Positions 3,560 through 9,585 of a DNA stretch of 37,533 nucleotides are shown one piece after another. Numbering within the stretch: the first letter of the stretch is position 1; every line of letters begins with the position of its first letter. Below the pieces are notes generated by a model, which had not been told where the DNA came from, made no database searches, and saw only the letters and a program-made list of their open reading frames with translations. The DNA lies in the IMG/VR virus record IMGVR_UViG_3300045125_000038, positions 1-37,533 of that record. One strand, given 5' to 3'. Made by a program: the position numbers and the translations under genes. Source of the DNA: a virus.

Positions 3560-4166
3560 TCGCTCGCTGCCTGTTGTGGTAGTCTTAGTGTGATCGCTGT
3601 GGTCTTCACTGTGGTCGCCGCGTTTCGCAGCTGCCGCACCGCCTGCTGCACTGCAGCCGCTCCAATCCGCTGCTGCCTGTACTCCTCAGATTCGCTCGGC
3701 TGTGCGAGTCAAACTGGCGGATGCCAGCGTCCCCGTCCTGCAGTGGTAAAGCATGGTCCAGTAGGACGTCCAGCCGGTCCACTATCGCCGTCGAGCTCGA
3801 TCGTCTTCTGGTCGATAGCGTCCGTCAGTAAATGACACGGATCGGCCGCCTCCAAATCGCTCGAAGCAGAGCCTTCGTCCTGCTGGAGTGGTAACAGAAT
3901 CTGACCGAACCAGACTGAACAACCTGAGCCATCTTTGAACCCCCTGAGCTTTCTTGACTTCCACCATCACCGCCAGCTGCTCATTCACGCGACACGCATG
4001 AACCCCCAGCAACTGAGGACCGCCGGCGACAATGCCAGCAGAGCCCGCGACGTGAGCACACTGAGCCACGTCGTTTGGCACCAAATTAAACACCGCGACG
4101 CCCATGGCGAAGCATGCCCACGAAATCGAAAGCTGCCTGCCAGTATTCGCCGCTCAAATCAGCCAT
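3556..4166 (-). CDS. Fragmented membrane protein, unknown
   Basis: Up to about 200 residues by joining several frames. MADLSGEYWQAAFDFVGMLR at the start, a hydrophobic segment (LTSRALLALSPAVLSCWGFM), then EQLAVMVEVKKAQGVQRWL, an acidic region (GSASSDLEAADPCHLLTDAI) and the C-terminal helix EEYRQQRIGAAAVQQAVRQL. It ends with TGA overlapping the next ATG. Reading is uncertain between 3950 and 3650. It may be one or two genes. Confidence 0.35.
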
Positions 4167-4365
4167 GACAGCCCCAGACAAACCGCGAGAACAACGATCG
4201 ACAGAGCCAAGGCGAGGACCACCCACACCCACGCCTGCCAGTGTAGTCGAGAAACGTCTGAGCAGTGTCCTCAGAGACCTCGCCCTCGAATCCGGGCGCG
4301 TCAATACGCACCCCTTTTCGTTGCGGTTGCCGTTTCGGCTTGTCCTCTGGTTGTGCGTCTGCCAT
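4154..4365 (-). CDS. Small C-terminally anchored membrane protein
   Basis: About 70 residues. Charged N-terminus MADAQPEDKPKRQPQRKGVR, then GFEGEVSEDTAQTFLDYTG. After a frame change near 4240 a Trp-rich start and long hydrophobic helix follow (WQAWVWVVLALALSIVVLAV), ending SWLI. A tail-anchored inner membrane protein, compatible with a holin or antiholin. Confidence 0.5.
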
Positions 4366-4444: not shown

Positions 4445-4886
4445 TCAGGGTTTCCCCTCAGTCACTCTGGTTAGCAGCGCCTGCAGCGTCCCTCGTGTGT
4501 ATCCTGTCTGCGTCTGCGTTTTGCCGTCGCTGGTCGTCCACCGAAACGCCGGAATGCGGCTGCTGAAATTTACCCGCTTGACCTCAACGCCAACGTCTCC
4601 AGCTGCCTTGCAGGTCGTGCCCAGAACTGCTGACAAGGCCCGCACCATTCCGCTGCTTGCAACCTCCAGCACTGGCTTCGCCTGGACCACCTCCAGCGGT
4701 TCGGCAACTGTTCGGGATTTTCGAACAGTTGCCCCGCCCTCAATCGCGTCCAGCCGCTCCTCGATCGCAACAATGCGTGCCAGCAGCACCCGCCAGTCAG
4801 GCAATGTGTCAACGGTCTCATCAGCGACCACGCCGACGCAATAGCCGACGCCGACCATCAGCACGACAGCCCATGATCCTCACCAT
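4445..4886 (-). CDS. Secreted or membrane-anchored small protein
   Basis: About 146 residues from ATG at 4886, preceded by GGGGGCGG. Removing one G near 4872 gives MVRIMAVVLMVGVGYCVGVV, a signal peptide or membrane helix. Then VDTLPDWRVLLARIVAIEER, a short coiled coil. The end GKTQTQTGYTRGTLQALLTR is intact. A Gly/Ala cysteine (VASSGMVRALSAVLGTTCKA) is present. Unknown; a spanin-like or peptidase-accessory role is possible. Confidence 0.45.
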
Positions 4887-4931
4887 AACCCGCCCCCTGT
4901 TTCTCGGCAGTCGTGATACCGCTCGACGGCC

Positions 4932-5736
4932 TTATCGGGCATCAGCAGGAAGCCCGCCAAACGGCTCCCACTGTGCCTCCTGCAGTTGCTCATAGCACCG
5001 CTGCGACATCAGGTAATAGCCGTCGCCGTGCGAATTCCAGACGCACAGATACCACTGACCCCGCACCTCCACGGCCCAGATGATTTCGGTTGCGTGTCCG
5101 CCGCCTGCTTCGCGGCATCCGGTCCATGCACCGCTTCGGCCCGCCAACGTCCTGCCAGTCGACGCCCCACTTGGTCCCGATATGACCGCTTCCACCAGCT
5201 GCAACTGCTGCCAGCATCCCGCGAAAATCAGGCAACGGCCCGTGCTCTGTCACGTGGCCCGGGCTGGATCTCGACGCCTTTGCGGCCTGCCTCAAACTGC
5301 CGCTGTGATCGGTAGTATTGTGCGTAAGGCCACGCCTGCTCTGTCGGCAGACCTGGTGCCACGCCTAGCGACGGAATGCCCTCGACCAGCACACTGACGC
5401 CGCTGTGAATGCTGCTGCCCCGGTCGCGTCCAACCTGTGACGGCTGCATCCGGTATTCGCTGGCGTTGTACGCATAGATCTCCGACAGCTGCCGGCATCT
5501 CGACGGAACCCACTGCAATACCAGCTGCCGGTACTCCTCGCCGTTCGCTGTGGCGTTGCCCTGACAGTCGCTGCGCTGCTGTCGCTCAACCTGCATTCGG
5601 GTCAGCGGGTTTCGTGCTGGATCTCTCAGCACCTGCTCGTAATCGTCGAAGTCGCTTCGCGTTCGCACTGCATTTCAGCGTGCTCTGCAGTGCCTCGATT
5701 TCCTCCGGCGTCGGTTCCAGCAGTGCGGTCTGTCAT
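4932..5736 (-). CDS. Papain-like (C1-type) cysteine peptidase
   Basis: About 268 residues with frame changes near 5710, 5670, 5240 and 5125. After an N-terminal extension (LEPTPEEIEALQSTLK) comes the catalytic region RQQRSDCQGNATANGEEYRQ, with Gln for the oxyanion hole and Cys. SSIHSGVSVLVEGI and LPTEQAWPYAQYY follow, matching the papain 'G..P..YPY' step. The catalytic His is in GGGHATEIIWAVEVRGQWYL and the Asn in CVWNSHGDGYYLMSQ (papain has NSWG..WG..G). The papain CGSCWAF is replaced by DCQGNATAN. Located among membrane/secreted genes, it may act in lysis, entry or on host proteins; the substrate is unknown. Confidence 0.65.
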
Positions 5737-6415
5737 CGCTGAAACCTCCGCAGCCAGGCAGCATGTTTTTCAGCCGTCCAGCGTTCGCCGCCGACCTCGT
5801 CAAACTGCTGCTGCAGAAGGTCTTTGCTGAGGTCTTTGCGTGCCTGCAGCAGTGTCGCTGATCAGCCACGCCTCGGCCTCCGGCTCGCTCTTGAACAGCC
5901 CGCTTTCCAGTCGCTCGGCCTGCTCTGCATACGCTTTGCGCCATGCCGCCTCGTAGCCGACGCACCACCTCGCCAGCTCATCGACCGGCTGCGGTCGCGG
6001 TGGTGGCTGTGGCAGCTGCGGTGCCGTCACCTCCAGCAGGATCCGCTGCAGGTCCGGCGGTTCGCCGCTGCCAACTGGAAGCACCAGCAACTCAACTTTG
6101 CCGGCTGCCACACCCTCGACCAGATAGCCGAACTTCCTGCTGACCTTGCGTGACTCGGTCGCCTTTGCCCCGCCTGCAAACCGCCCTCGAATCCGCGTTC
6201 CCTCTGGCTCTGGCGTGATCTCGACCACGCCAGCCGGGCGAGGCGAACACGTGCAACGCCACGTCCGACTTTGGATCAGGTAGATTTGATCGCAAATCAA
6301 ATGCCGTCACCGCATCCGGAACAACCGGCTGCGGTGGCGGATTGACTGGCTGCGGAAGGTCGATTGCTGGCCTGCCGTCCTGCAGCATGACCAGCAGCAG
6401 AAACAGTAGCCGCAT
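5733..6415 (-). CDS. Secreted proline-rich protein
   Basis: About 227 residues. MRLLFLLLVMLQDGRPA is a likely signal peptide or anchor. A proline-rich stretch (DLPQPVNPPPQPVVPDAV) is followed by a beta domain (SDVALHVFASPGW, GVVEITPEPEGTRIRGRFAG, GKVELLVLPVGSGEPP), another Pro-rich segment and a helical end (LARWCVGYEAAWRKAYAEQA, GGERWTAEKHAAWLRRF). Frame changes near 6230 and 5855. The stop overlaps the peptidase start. Presumably exported; partner of the peptidase is a reasonable guess. Confidence 0.5.
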
Positions 6416-6418
6416 GGC

Positions 6419-6813
6419 TCAGTTCCCCTCTGCGACCAGTTCGGCAGCGTCCGTCGGCTGACATCGCCACAAATGACCCGATGCTGTGCACCGCCAGCCG
6501 TCGGGCGCTTTCGCTGTCGATCGCGTAGCGGCCCACGTCTGCAGGTATGCCCGGTTTCTTTTGCCCGCTTCCGCTCATCGCGTGCCCGGGCTTTGCACTC
6601 CTGCAAGATCTTCCCTGCAGCCGCTGGATCTGTCGCTCCTGCCCTGGCCCATTGTGGTCAGCGGCCACAGCTGGCTGCACGTCCTGCTGCTGTCGCTTCG
6701 CTTTGCACTGCTGCACCCAGCCCATGATTGACCGGCAGAATGGTGGTGATCAGCGTGGCTATCGTGACCGGATCAAATGCGACCAGCTCGCCGTTGTCAT
6801 TGCTGCCGGTCAT
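6419..6813 (-). CDS. Membrane-anchored small protein at head of lysis-like module
   Basis: About 131 residues, several frame changes. MTGSNDNGELVAFDPVTIAT, then a hydrophobic helix (TIATLITTILPVIMGWVQQ), a basic/Gln-rich helix (CKARARDERKRAKETG) and, at the end, a cysteine- and Trp-rich segment APDGWRCTASGHLWRCQPTD then AAELVAEGN. Could be a holin- or spanin-like protein by position; not provable. Confidence 0.4.
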
Positions 6814-7301: not shown

Positions 7302-7375
7302 TGCCTGCCTCTCCTTCGCTCGTTTGAACGCCAGATCCAGAAAAACCGATCCGCCTCAGACAGTGCCTCTACCAT
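7262..7375 (-). CDS. Possible very small protein after the helicase
   Basis: 37 residues from an ATG that overlaps the helicase stop: MVEALSEADRFFWIWRSNER. The overlap style and aromatic-rich sequence support it, but its end overlaps the next gene and could be altered by an indel. Confidence 0.3.
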   Translation of the reverse strand: MVEALSEADRFFWIWRSNERRRGRQWHTNDDYRQPSS

Positions 7376-8552
7376 CGGTCGAACTCCTGAAACGCATCAC
7401 TGACCACAAAACGAAACTTCGCCCCCTCCAGTTGCAGATCCAGCCGCCCGGTCTTGCCGCCTCGGTGTTTCGCGACTTCCACGGATGTCTTCCCGGTGTC
7501 CGCGTCTTTGTGCAGAAGAATCACAATGTCGGCGTCCTGCTCGATTGCTCCGGACTCCCTCAGGTCATGCAAACCCGGTCGGCCTGTTTTCTCCGCGTTC
7601 CGGTTAAGCTGACTGCCCACAATCACCGGCAATTGCAGGTCCATCGCCATGCGTTTCATCTGCCGGCTTGCCTTCGCGATTTCCCGTTCCCGGCCCTCGC
7701 GACCGCTGCCCGGAACCTCCGAGCAGTTGCAGATAATCAATCGCCACGCCGCACAGCTTCATGCGCCGTGCCGTGACTGACACCAGTGCCTGAATCGCCC
7801 CGAGATTGCTCGTGCTGTCGATGTATCGCAGGTTCAGTGCTGCCAACTCTGGCTCGCTGTATCGCGTCCGCAGTCGCTCAATCAACTCCCTGGCCATCAT
7901 CTCCAGAGCTGACCACCAGACCGGCCTGCGCGGCTACTACACGGACCCGAGCAACATCTGCAGCATCAGGACAGACTTCCCGCTGCCCGGTCTGCCACCG
8001 ACCACCACCAACTGACCGGACTTCAGACCGCCGCCCAGCAGATCGTCCAGCGGCTTCAGCCTTCGTCGGGATGAACTGCCGCCGGGTTTCGCCTCTCGTC
8101 GTCTGCTCGCTGGATGGCCTCGGCCTGCGTTACCAAGCTCCGCGTGCTGGCGTGTCCGCAGTTCGTCCAGCCTGCTGATGTATTCGTCGACGTCCGGCGT
8201 TTGGTCGCGGGTCAGTTGCAGCCCCACGATTCGCAGATCGTCGATTTCGTTCAGTTTCGCCAACTGCTCGCAGTAGTACGGAATGTGCTGCGTCTCAAAC
8301 CGTGACGCCTGCAGGTTCGACCAACTACCGCCAGTTCCAGTTTGCTTGCAGCACACCTCGTCGCATGATGGTGTCCAGGTCGAACGGCTCGCCGCGTTCG
8401 GCCCTGCGTTCGAGAATTGCCCAGTATGCCGCCCGGGAAACGTCTCTGATCGGTCTCGGCTGAGTCCGCGCCTGAATCTCGGCTACAAACTCAGGACCGC
8501 ACAGTGCCGCACACAATAAGCCGTTTTCGATGGTGTCACGTTTGGGAATCAT
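7369..8552 (-). CDS. dnaB: Replicative DNA helicase, DnaB-like
   Basis: About 394 residues; unwinds DNA at the phage fork. ATG at 8552 (MIPKRDTIENGLLCAALCG) is chosen because AGGAG lies ten bases upstream. N-terminal domain: RPIRDVSRAAYWAILERRAE. RecA-like domain: Walker A GGRPGSGKSVLMLQM, Walker B AIDYLQLLGG, then SQLNRNAEKTGRPGLHDLRE and SGAIEQDADIVILLHKD, and the final VEVAKHRGGKTGRLDLQLEG. These are the classic DnaB H1-H4 features in order. Frame changes occur near 8350, 8110, 7935 and 7690. It follows the initiator in one operon. Confidence 0.88.
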
Positions 8553-9585
8553 CGCATGGAACTCCTGTTGATTGTCCATTCAGCCGCAAGATCTTTTTTC
8601 GTGTACCTGTCACACTCGACGAATCGCCGTGAACCCATTTTCCGGACGATCCGGATCAACTCCGGCCCGATGTGCTTTTCGCGGGCCTCACGGTCAAAAT
8701 CTGAATCCCCTGGGTATTGTTTGCAGACTTCGACGGCTCGGAGGAAATCAGGGTCTGCCGCTTCCAAAGCTTTTTGCGACTTGCCTCTGTGCTCGCGGGG
8801 TGTGCAATCTTCGACGTTCTTCCAGCCGTTCGCGATTGACCCCTCAATGTCACGCAAAAATGCCTCTGGTGTTTTGCGTCCCATTTTCTGCCACCAGCCC
8901 TGAAGCTGAATCGCGTTGTTCCTGGGATTCTTGTCCGGCATCCCTGCGGCTGTCACAATACGCAAACCACGTCTCAGCAGCCGCCAGACACTCAGGAGTG
9001 TTCAGTTTTTCAGGAATGATCACCTGTTCAATCACCACCCGCACACACCACCGGCCTTTCCGGATCGGCTCCAGGGTGAGGGGGAGGGGAAGGAATAGGC
9101 ATAGAAGGTTTTCCGCTTTTCATTCCGCTATTCGTTTCACATTCATTCCCGTATTCGTCACCTTTTTGGGACGTTATTGGGTCAGATTCGGAACGATTCG
9201 GGGAATGATTAGTGGAATGAATACCGGAACGATTTCCGCCATTCTCGCCAACCGGCGTGTCATCCAGTGATGCGTACTGCTCCGGGACTGTGGTGTAGTA
9301 CTTGCCGACCGCCCTGTTTTGCGGTCTTTCGTACACAAGCCAACCCGCCTCAATTGCCTTGTCTCTGGCTCTGTCCAACTGCTTTGGGGACGTGAACCCC
9401 AGCACGTTCATCAGTTGCTCATTCCAGAATTTGCACGGCCCGGTGTACCGCATTGCGTCCTCAGTGTGAGAGACGTACACGCACAGCAACACCGCCTGCT
9501 GCCCAATCTCCTGAGCAGCGCACGACTTCATCAGCAGTCTGGTGTACTTGTGTGCCCAGTGTGTCGATCTTTTCGGATAGTCCAT
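8549..9585 (-). CDS. Phage replication initiator, O/DnaD-like winged-helix protein
   Basis: About 345 residues. Start MDYPKRSTHWAHKYTRLLMK at 9585, with GTGGAGCA upstream. The N-terminal winged-helix part includes AAQEIGQQAVLLCVYVSHTE, FWNEQLMNVLGFTSPKQLDR and IEAGWLVYERPQNRAVGKYY. A polar linker (RSGIHSTNHSPNRSESDPI) follows, and the C-terminal part IPEKLNTPECLAAAETWFAY and NAIQLQGWWQKMGRKTPEAF, LRDIEGSIANGWKNVED is the domain found in lambda O/DnaD-type helicase loaders. Frame changes near 9060 and 8905. The stop overlaps the helicase start (ATGA). Origins of such phages often lie inside the initiator linker. Confidence 0.7.

Follow-up and report, generated by a model that had tools for sequence, protein, structure and literature searches.

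A gene cluster in an uncultured viral contig probably constitutes a lysis cassette whose lysin is a papain-like cysteine peptidase of the C1A type, a judgement that takes together two accounts of the target, the preferred one and a rival in which peptidoglycan is cleaved. The contig, referred to here as the window, is the whole of IMG/VR record IMGVR_UViG_3300045125_000038 and comprises 37,533 bases, linear. According to the preferred account, which may well be correct but is given a little less than even weight, the cassette belongs to a tailed phage that infects planctomycetes, the peptidase replaces the endolysin, and the likeliest target is a disulfide-linked protein wall. The genes concerned are as follows.

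3788..4166, minus strand: membrane protein (MADLSGEYW...), cluster c7, frameshifted, end approximate; tblastn
4154..4365, minus strand: small protein with a single C-terminal TM segment (MADAQPEDKPKR...SIVVLAVCLGLS), cluster c5; tblastn 1e-23
4445..4886, minus strand: secreted thioredoxin-like protein with a coiled-coil stem and WCGPC (EWCGPC at 4650-4633), frameshifted; tblastn 2e-21
4880..5736, minus strand: gene for the predicted C1A-type papain-like cysteine peptidase, frameshifted; motifs, intact homologues, AF2, Foldseek and tblastn of relatives
5581-5579, 5566-5564, 5096-5094 and 5036-5034, minus strand: peptidase codons for the oxyanion Gln and the catalytic Cys, His and Asn, respectively
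5733..6415, minus strand: partner gene, cluster c2, with signal peptide/anchor, frameshifted; tblastn, AF2, and position immediately 5' of the peptidase gene in 37/37 loci compared
6483..6813, minus strand: protein with one hydrophobic segment, cluster c1, upstream of the partner, ends approximate; tblastn

The window runs from tail genes at its left end through the cassette and genes of DNA metabolism to tape measure, capsid, portal and terminase genes at its right end. Its proteins lie in the same order along the contig as those of a relative, G001 (43,028 bases), which carries a 127-base terminal repeat and is therefore a complete genome. The capsid, portal, terminase and tape-measure genes of the window are split across frames, although G001 has many of the large ones as open frames, and the window is depleted of long G/C homopolymers, on which grounds the frameshifts across the whole contig are taken as probable uncorrected long-read sequencing error. 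Neither the peptidase nor the partner gene is one single open frame in this contig, and the three peptidase motifs span frames. A reading of the frameshifts as marks of pseudogenes was rejected because the structural genes are equally broken and the relatives intact. The frames were left unmended, and searches were run with pieces of the window and with intact relatives.

A preliminary description of this DNA had proposed a papain-like peptidase with Cys, His and Asn in order but without the papain CGSCWAF, ending at 4932 and overlapping by four bases a gene for a secreted proline-rich protein. The three residues were found in DCQGNATAN (5569-5543), GGGHATEI (5105-5082) and CVWNSHG (5045-5025), all on the minus strand, and DCQGNA stands in the place of CGSCWAF. 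The overlap is exact, the partner stop codon (5735-5733) and the peptidase ATG (5736) having ATGA in common. The 3' end had to be moved to approximately 4880, as the conserved C-terminus runs on in another frame (...MPDKAVERYHDCRETGGGLW stop). Repair of the frame does not cost the enzyme its catalytic residues: all of them are present in relatives whose gene is a single uninterrupted frame. Intact homologues occur in more than 50 IMG/VR contigs, and segments of the window peptidase are 55-83% identical to them per segment (tblastn 6e-74). With dN/dS values of 0.03-0.09 between pairs of homologues, this indicates that the ORF is no chance frame; the family is under purifying selection. The peptidase has no apparent signal peptide.

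A piecewise query yielded two intact relatives, whose alignment retrieved 41 loci in viral contigs; a wider alignment retrieved 78, approximately 57 of them core members (at least 43% identity) and 21 distant (25-29%). Across 24 diverse core members there is no variation at Q55, D59, C60, G211-G213, H214, N234, S235, H236 or G237. The oxyanion-hole Q55 lies five residues ahead of the Cys, one less than in the prophage homologue described below (QSSMGSC). In the more distant L061 and L062, Gln, Cys and His are kept and the Asn occurs within ANSH and ANSW, of which ANSW is out of register in the alignment. Neither the window pieces nor the 24 core members gave a relevant Pfam match, and direct Pfam and PHROGs scans of peptidase and partner returned nothing useful. 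The GTDB scan gave no match with a narrow alignment and only L050 with a broader one, and no real relative of the family was found among isolate phages.

Structure prediction, which the preliminary description had put forward as a check, gave an AF2 model of the peptidase (pLDDT 89.9, pTM 0.89) with a papain fold. Foldseek matched this model to 190 PDB chains at E<=0.001, the top match being xylellain (3ois, 3.6e-8); the best 50 of the 190 are all of the papain/cathepsin type, C1A, with no NlpC/P60 or CHAP protein among the matches listed. By sequence, the core family is tied to C1A only via intermediates, namely prophage and host homologues. The family profile reached a homologue in a Planctomycetota prophage (7.5e-11), and a profile built from this and a host homologue reached xylellain (6.5e-16); the family profile also reached an ordinary C1 peptidase in G289 (2.1e-6), which matches xylellain at 2e-72. 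A direct profile search of the PDB (A2) returned a chance match only. Based on the AF2 and Foldseek results and the profile bridge to xylellain, the peptidase is accepted as having a divergent C1A-type fold with its catalytic set intact, and proteolysis is predicted. The family has in common with xylellain and C1A the fold, the Gln-Cys-His-Asn order and the GGHA and N-S-x-G motifs; it differs in the missing CGSCWAF, in a Gln five and not six residues before the Cys, in a core that lies outside Pfam detection, and in the setting of its predicted activity, a phage cassette that also encodes the partner, a thioredoxin and a holin.

The partner gene starts at 6415 (MRLLFLLL...). The signal peptide and two Pro-rich linkers attributed to its product agree with an N-terminal hydrophobic segment and with Pro-rich stretches that flank a beta domain, giving the order signal peptide/anchor, Pro-rich linker, beta-sandwich, second Pro-rich linker and three-helix C-terminal domain. 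The AF2 model (pLDDT 85, pTM 0.48) has strands at 42-132 and helices at 150-230; at this pTM the individual domains are trusted and their arrangement is not. The partner has two forms, a secreted one with beta-sandwich and three helices and, in divergent phages, one made up of a TM anchor and the helical domain only. In a distant group (L131-L151) the peptidase is preceded, at a distance of one to three genes, by a TM-plus-helical gene whose profile similarity to the partner is weak (1e-4 to 4e-4, single comparisons). For the beta domain (L003:5226-5927, residues 41-132), the top 50 Foldseek matches include, among other Ig folds, several weak ones to cysteine-peptidase inhibitors of the chagasin type (amoebosin, EhICP2 and chagasin). 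Chagasin/I42 inhibitors and the beta domain are both Ig-like, but the E values are 2e-3 or worse at approximately 8-17% identity, other Ig folds score alike, and the domain gave no sequence match to I42. A chagasin-like inhibitor role was not adopted, the matches being weak and the domain missing from short partners.

The start of the thioredoxin-like gene (4886) overlaps the peptidase stop near 4880. The motif of its product is WCGPC or WCAPC; the prophage homologue (L061) matches PF00085 at 1.5e-6, above cutoff, and the L003 homologue matches Thioredoxin_7 (PF13899) at 3.9e-5, below its cutoff. Among 65 loci with enough downstream sequence, closely related contigs counted, a secreted CxxC thioredoxin-like protein is encoded 3' of the peptidase in 45 by automatic motif and in 51 after manual reading, which added L140-L143 (CPPC, missed by start choice) and L050 and L102 (CGAC). 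The neighbour is present also at distant relatives (25-29% identity) and in a prophage. On the preferred account it would act as a reductase, as opposed to an oxidase or isomerase. The other 14 of the 65 loci belong to one broad subgroup (L103, L115-L130) that keeps peptidase and partner and has a secreted lipoprotein-like protein instead; since the thioredoxin motif is missing there, reduction is not universally needed. In one subgroup (L038:6861-7616, L125:4819-5424, L127:4816-5412) the thioredoxin-like gene is replaced by one for a secreted coiled-coil protein with a CPGGxCP...RRGLFG tail.

Small single-TM proteins are encoded on both sides of the set. The c5 cluster adjoins the thioredoxin gene in most loci, and its product in the window (4154..4365) is a possible holin or pinholin. 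A c1 homologue matches phrog_13188, a PHROG of unknown function, at 4e-5. In many relatives the cassette is closely preceded by a DUF1353 gene (PF07087, 1.8e-16; L003:4378-4773).

A named holin was found in four relatives and in these loci only, Phage_holin_10 (PF23987) being encoded two or three genes 5' of the peptidase in L034, L036, L037 and L127. In the first three (approximately 1e-17) a single small ORF separates it from the partner that follows; in L127, which belongs to a different subgroup with a peptidase approximately 44% identical to the query, it directly precedes the partner (2.4e-20). The window and most relatives gave no named holin, and the window holin is a guess. The endolysin search covered known families. 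As the preliminary description had it, no standard endolysin is visible in the window, whose ORFs below 24.3 kb match eight Pfam families, none lytic. For G001 (65 ORFs), the 25 Pfam families listed include phage structural and DNA genes and no endolysin family, the rest being weaker than 1e-4, and its ORFs without assignment gave no endolysin among 25 PHROGs listed. The nine Pfam families matched by ORFs without assignment in G015 and in the G216 prophage likewise include none that is lytic. A peptidase without a signal peptide is as expected of a holin-released enzyme. The earlier suggestion of a non-canonical lysis enzyme is thus strengthened by the small-membrane-protein cassette, the holin of relatives and the lack of a recognisable endolysin; it had missed the secreted thioredoxin and could not have seen the link to Planctomycetota. 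The anti-host role that it named as an alternative is still possible.

The relatives indicate that the window phage probably infects planctomycetes. One of them, L050, lies on a 10-kb contig of a Planctomycetaceae MAG and is by itself weak host evidence, given possible misbinning. Stronger evidence comes from G216 (Planctomycetota), which carries a prophage within a 3.02-Mb contig, with terminase, portal and capsid proteins 34%, 36% and 51% identical, respectively, to those of G001; this prophage encodes, in turn, a TM protein, an anchored protein, one more small gene product, the peptidase and a secreted WCGPC thioredoxin.

Whether the planctomycete wall is held together by protein, peptidoglycan or both has been debated for some forty years, and phages must breach this wall for exit. 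Cysteine-rich YTV-domain proteins are found in planctomycete wall preparations, and peptidoglycan genes have been lost in most Planctomycetales (PMC8567305). YTV is confined to Planctomycetia, with a suggested effect on wall rigidity, and most peptidoglycan genes are dispensable in Planctopirus limnophila (PMC10632474). YTV was detected in all four genomes in which the cassette, or a host-chromosomal relative, was first found (G022, G216, G305 and G343), and was not found in G289, which has the ordinary C1 peptidase only. Of the 459 residues encoded by one host ORF with YTV repeats, 61 are Cys, and the N-terminal part of the protein includes a hydrophobic stretch. Among 294 evenly sampled Planctomycetota genomes 23 have YTV, and these include all three cassette genomes in the sample, for which the chance is approximately 4e-4 if genomes are independent; the cassette-YTV genomes are few and non-independent, the peptidases of G305 and G343 being 98% identical, and shared ancestry can explain the association. 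A later, weaker case, G127, which encodes a TM-anchored helical protein, a C1-like protein and a secreted WCTWC protein, is also YTV-positive.

The preferred account would proceed as follows. Synthesised without a signal peptide, the peptidase would at first be cytoplasmic and would enter the periplasm once a small membrane protein, the holin, opens the inner membrane. The partner would be exported and stay anchored, its conserved helical domain lying on the outer side of the membrane; there it may position or activate the peptidase, or link it to the envelope. Reduction of wall disulfides by the secreted thioredoxin-like protein would allow the peptidase to cut the wall, the likeliest target being a protein layer joined by disulfides, for instance the cysteine-rich YTV wall proteins of Planctomycetia. 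The YTV proteins of cassette genomes suggest that a protease and a disulfide reductase may dismantle a protein wall. The account in its full form, in which thioredoxin breaks the YTV disulfides, the holin-released protease digests the proteins, and the lysin is protease plus reductase with no peptidoglycan hydrolase, is put forward as the best single mechanism on offer, though a doubtful one. Its simplest version, a host without any peptidoglycan, was not supported: all five genomes examined gave a MraY match, above cutoff in four, so that peptidoglycan is probably present.

These MraY matches, together with a report of peptidoglycan in planctomycetes (PMC4432640), favour an endolysin that cleaves peptidoglycan cross-links as NlpC/P60 and CHAP enzymes do, with thioredoxin and partner serving in folding or export and no special protein-wall target. 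The cassette evidence supports it equally, and the fold resembles an annotated phage N-acetylmuramidase fragment (A0A8S5PQA2; E 7.5e-7, TM 0.56) and, more weakly, mycobacteriophage lysin A. However, the PDB matches listed are C1A proteases throughout, the peptidase has no recognised wall-binding domain, and the conserved disulfide-active neighbour would be left unexplained; we consider peptidoglycan cleavage unlikely, albeit the strongest of the rivals to a protein target. In many relatives the cassette directly adjoins tail-fibre/LamG genes, and C1A proteins without an assigned role are common in uncultured phages, as would suit a peptidase that is part of the virion, or one that serves entry or maturation, expressed from a late operon and not a lysis protein. 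The neighbouring proteins are exported membrane proteins, however, several relatives have a holin gene two or three genes upstream, and the complete genome G001 would be left without any recognisable lysin, which makes a virion or entry role improbable. Least probable is an envelope-remodelling or anti-competitor module (superinfection exclusion, a secreted effector or a host-beneficial function) shared by phages and host chromosomes: the exported partner and thioredoxin and the trios in the G305, G343 and G127 chromosomes would fit, but the peptidase itself lacks an export signal, the trio is strictly retained in phage genomes beside holin and tail genes, and single-locus host copies may be domesticated prophage remnants.

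The preferred lysis cassette resembles holin-endolysin cassettes in its small TM proteins, in Phage_holin_10 near the enzyme in relatives, in an enzyme without a signal peptide and in the lack of another recognisable lysin. It differs in that the enzyme is of C1A type and not an amidase, lysozyme, CHAP or NlpC, and in the additional conserved anchored partner and secreted thioredoxin-like protein. Endolysins of the CHAP and NlpC/P60 types also belong to the papain-like superfamily and use Cys-His catalysis, but are absent among the PDB fold matches listed, and the window peptidase has the size, Gln oxyanion residue and Asn of C1A. A precedent is offered by the pseudomurein endoisopeptidases PeiW and PeiP (C71), papain-superfamily viral lysins matched to an unusual wall (PMC10318531), which differ in family and host and have no thioredoxin partner. 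No C1A lysin and no planctomycete-phage lysis enzyme was found in the open-access library searched, where absence is not proof. Neither the C1A fold nor the notion of a holin cassette is new; what is undescribed, as far as could be found, is a C1A lysin combined with an anchored partner and a secreted thioredoxin. Should the lysin prove to be a protease with a disulfide reductase, the phage enzymes would be direct probes of the planctomycete wall and a tool for opening cells that are hard to study, and the endolysin concept would extend beyond peptidoglycan. Even on the narrower reading, a widespread group of uncultured phages would gain an assigned lysis cassette that current annotation misses.

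Further observations concern the surroundings of these genes. Replication modules appear to have been swapped beside the conserved cassette: the window has a DnaB-like helicase (7372-8579, minus strand), and near the equivalent place G001 has a primase/helicase (L052:7713-9878). The window also has matches to the DNA polymerase III beta subunit, or sliding clamp (PF00712 and PF02767; 14073-15633, minus strand), and the G216 prophage region likewise contains a DnaN-like ORF (L065:1577-2716). On host chromosomes, trios consisting of an exported helical protein, a C1-like peptidase and a secreted thioredoxin-like protein lie at L067:11903-14334 (G305), L074:594-3283 (G343) and L171:704-3414 (G127), in surroundings free of obvious phage genes. 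These are possibly domesticated lysis units, and the set may have a cellular use; in the G127 trio, the N-terminal TM region of the first protein is, in addition, holin-like.
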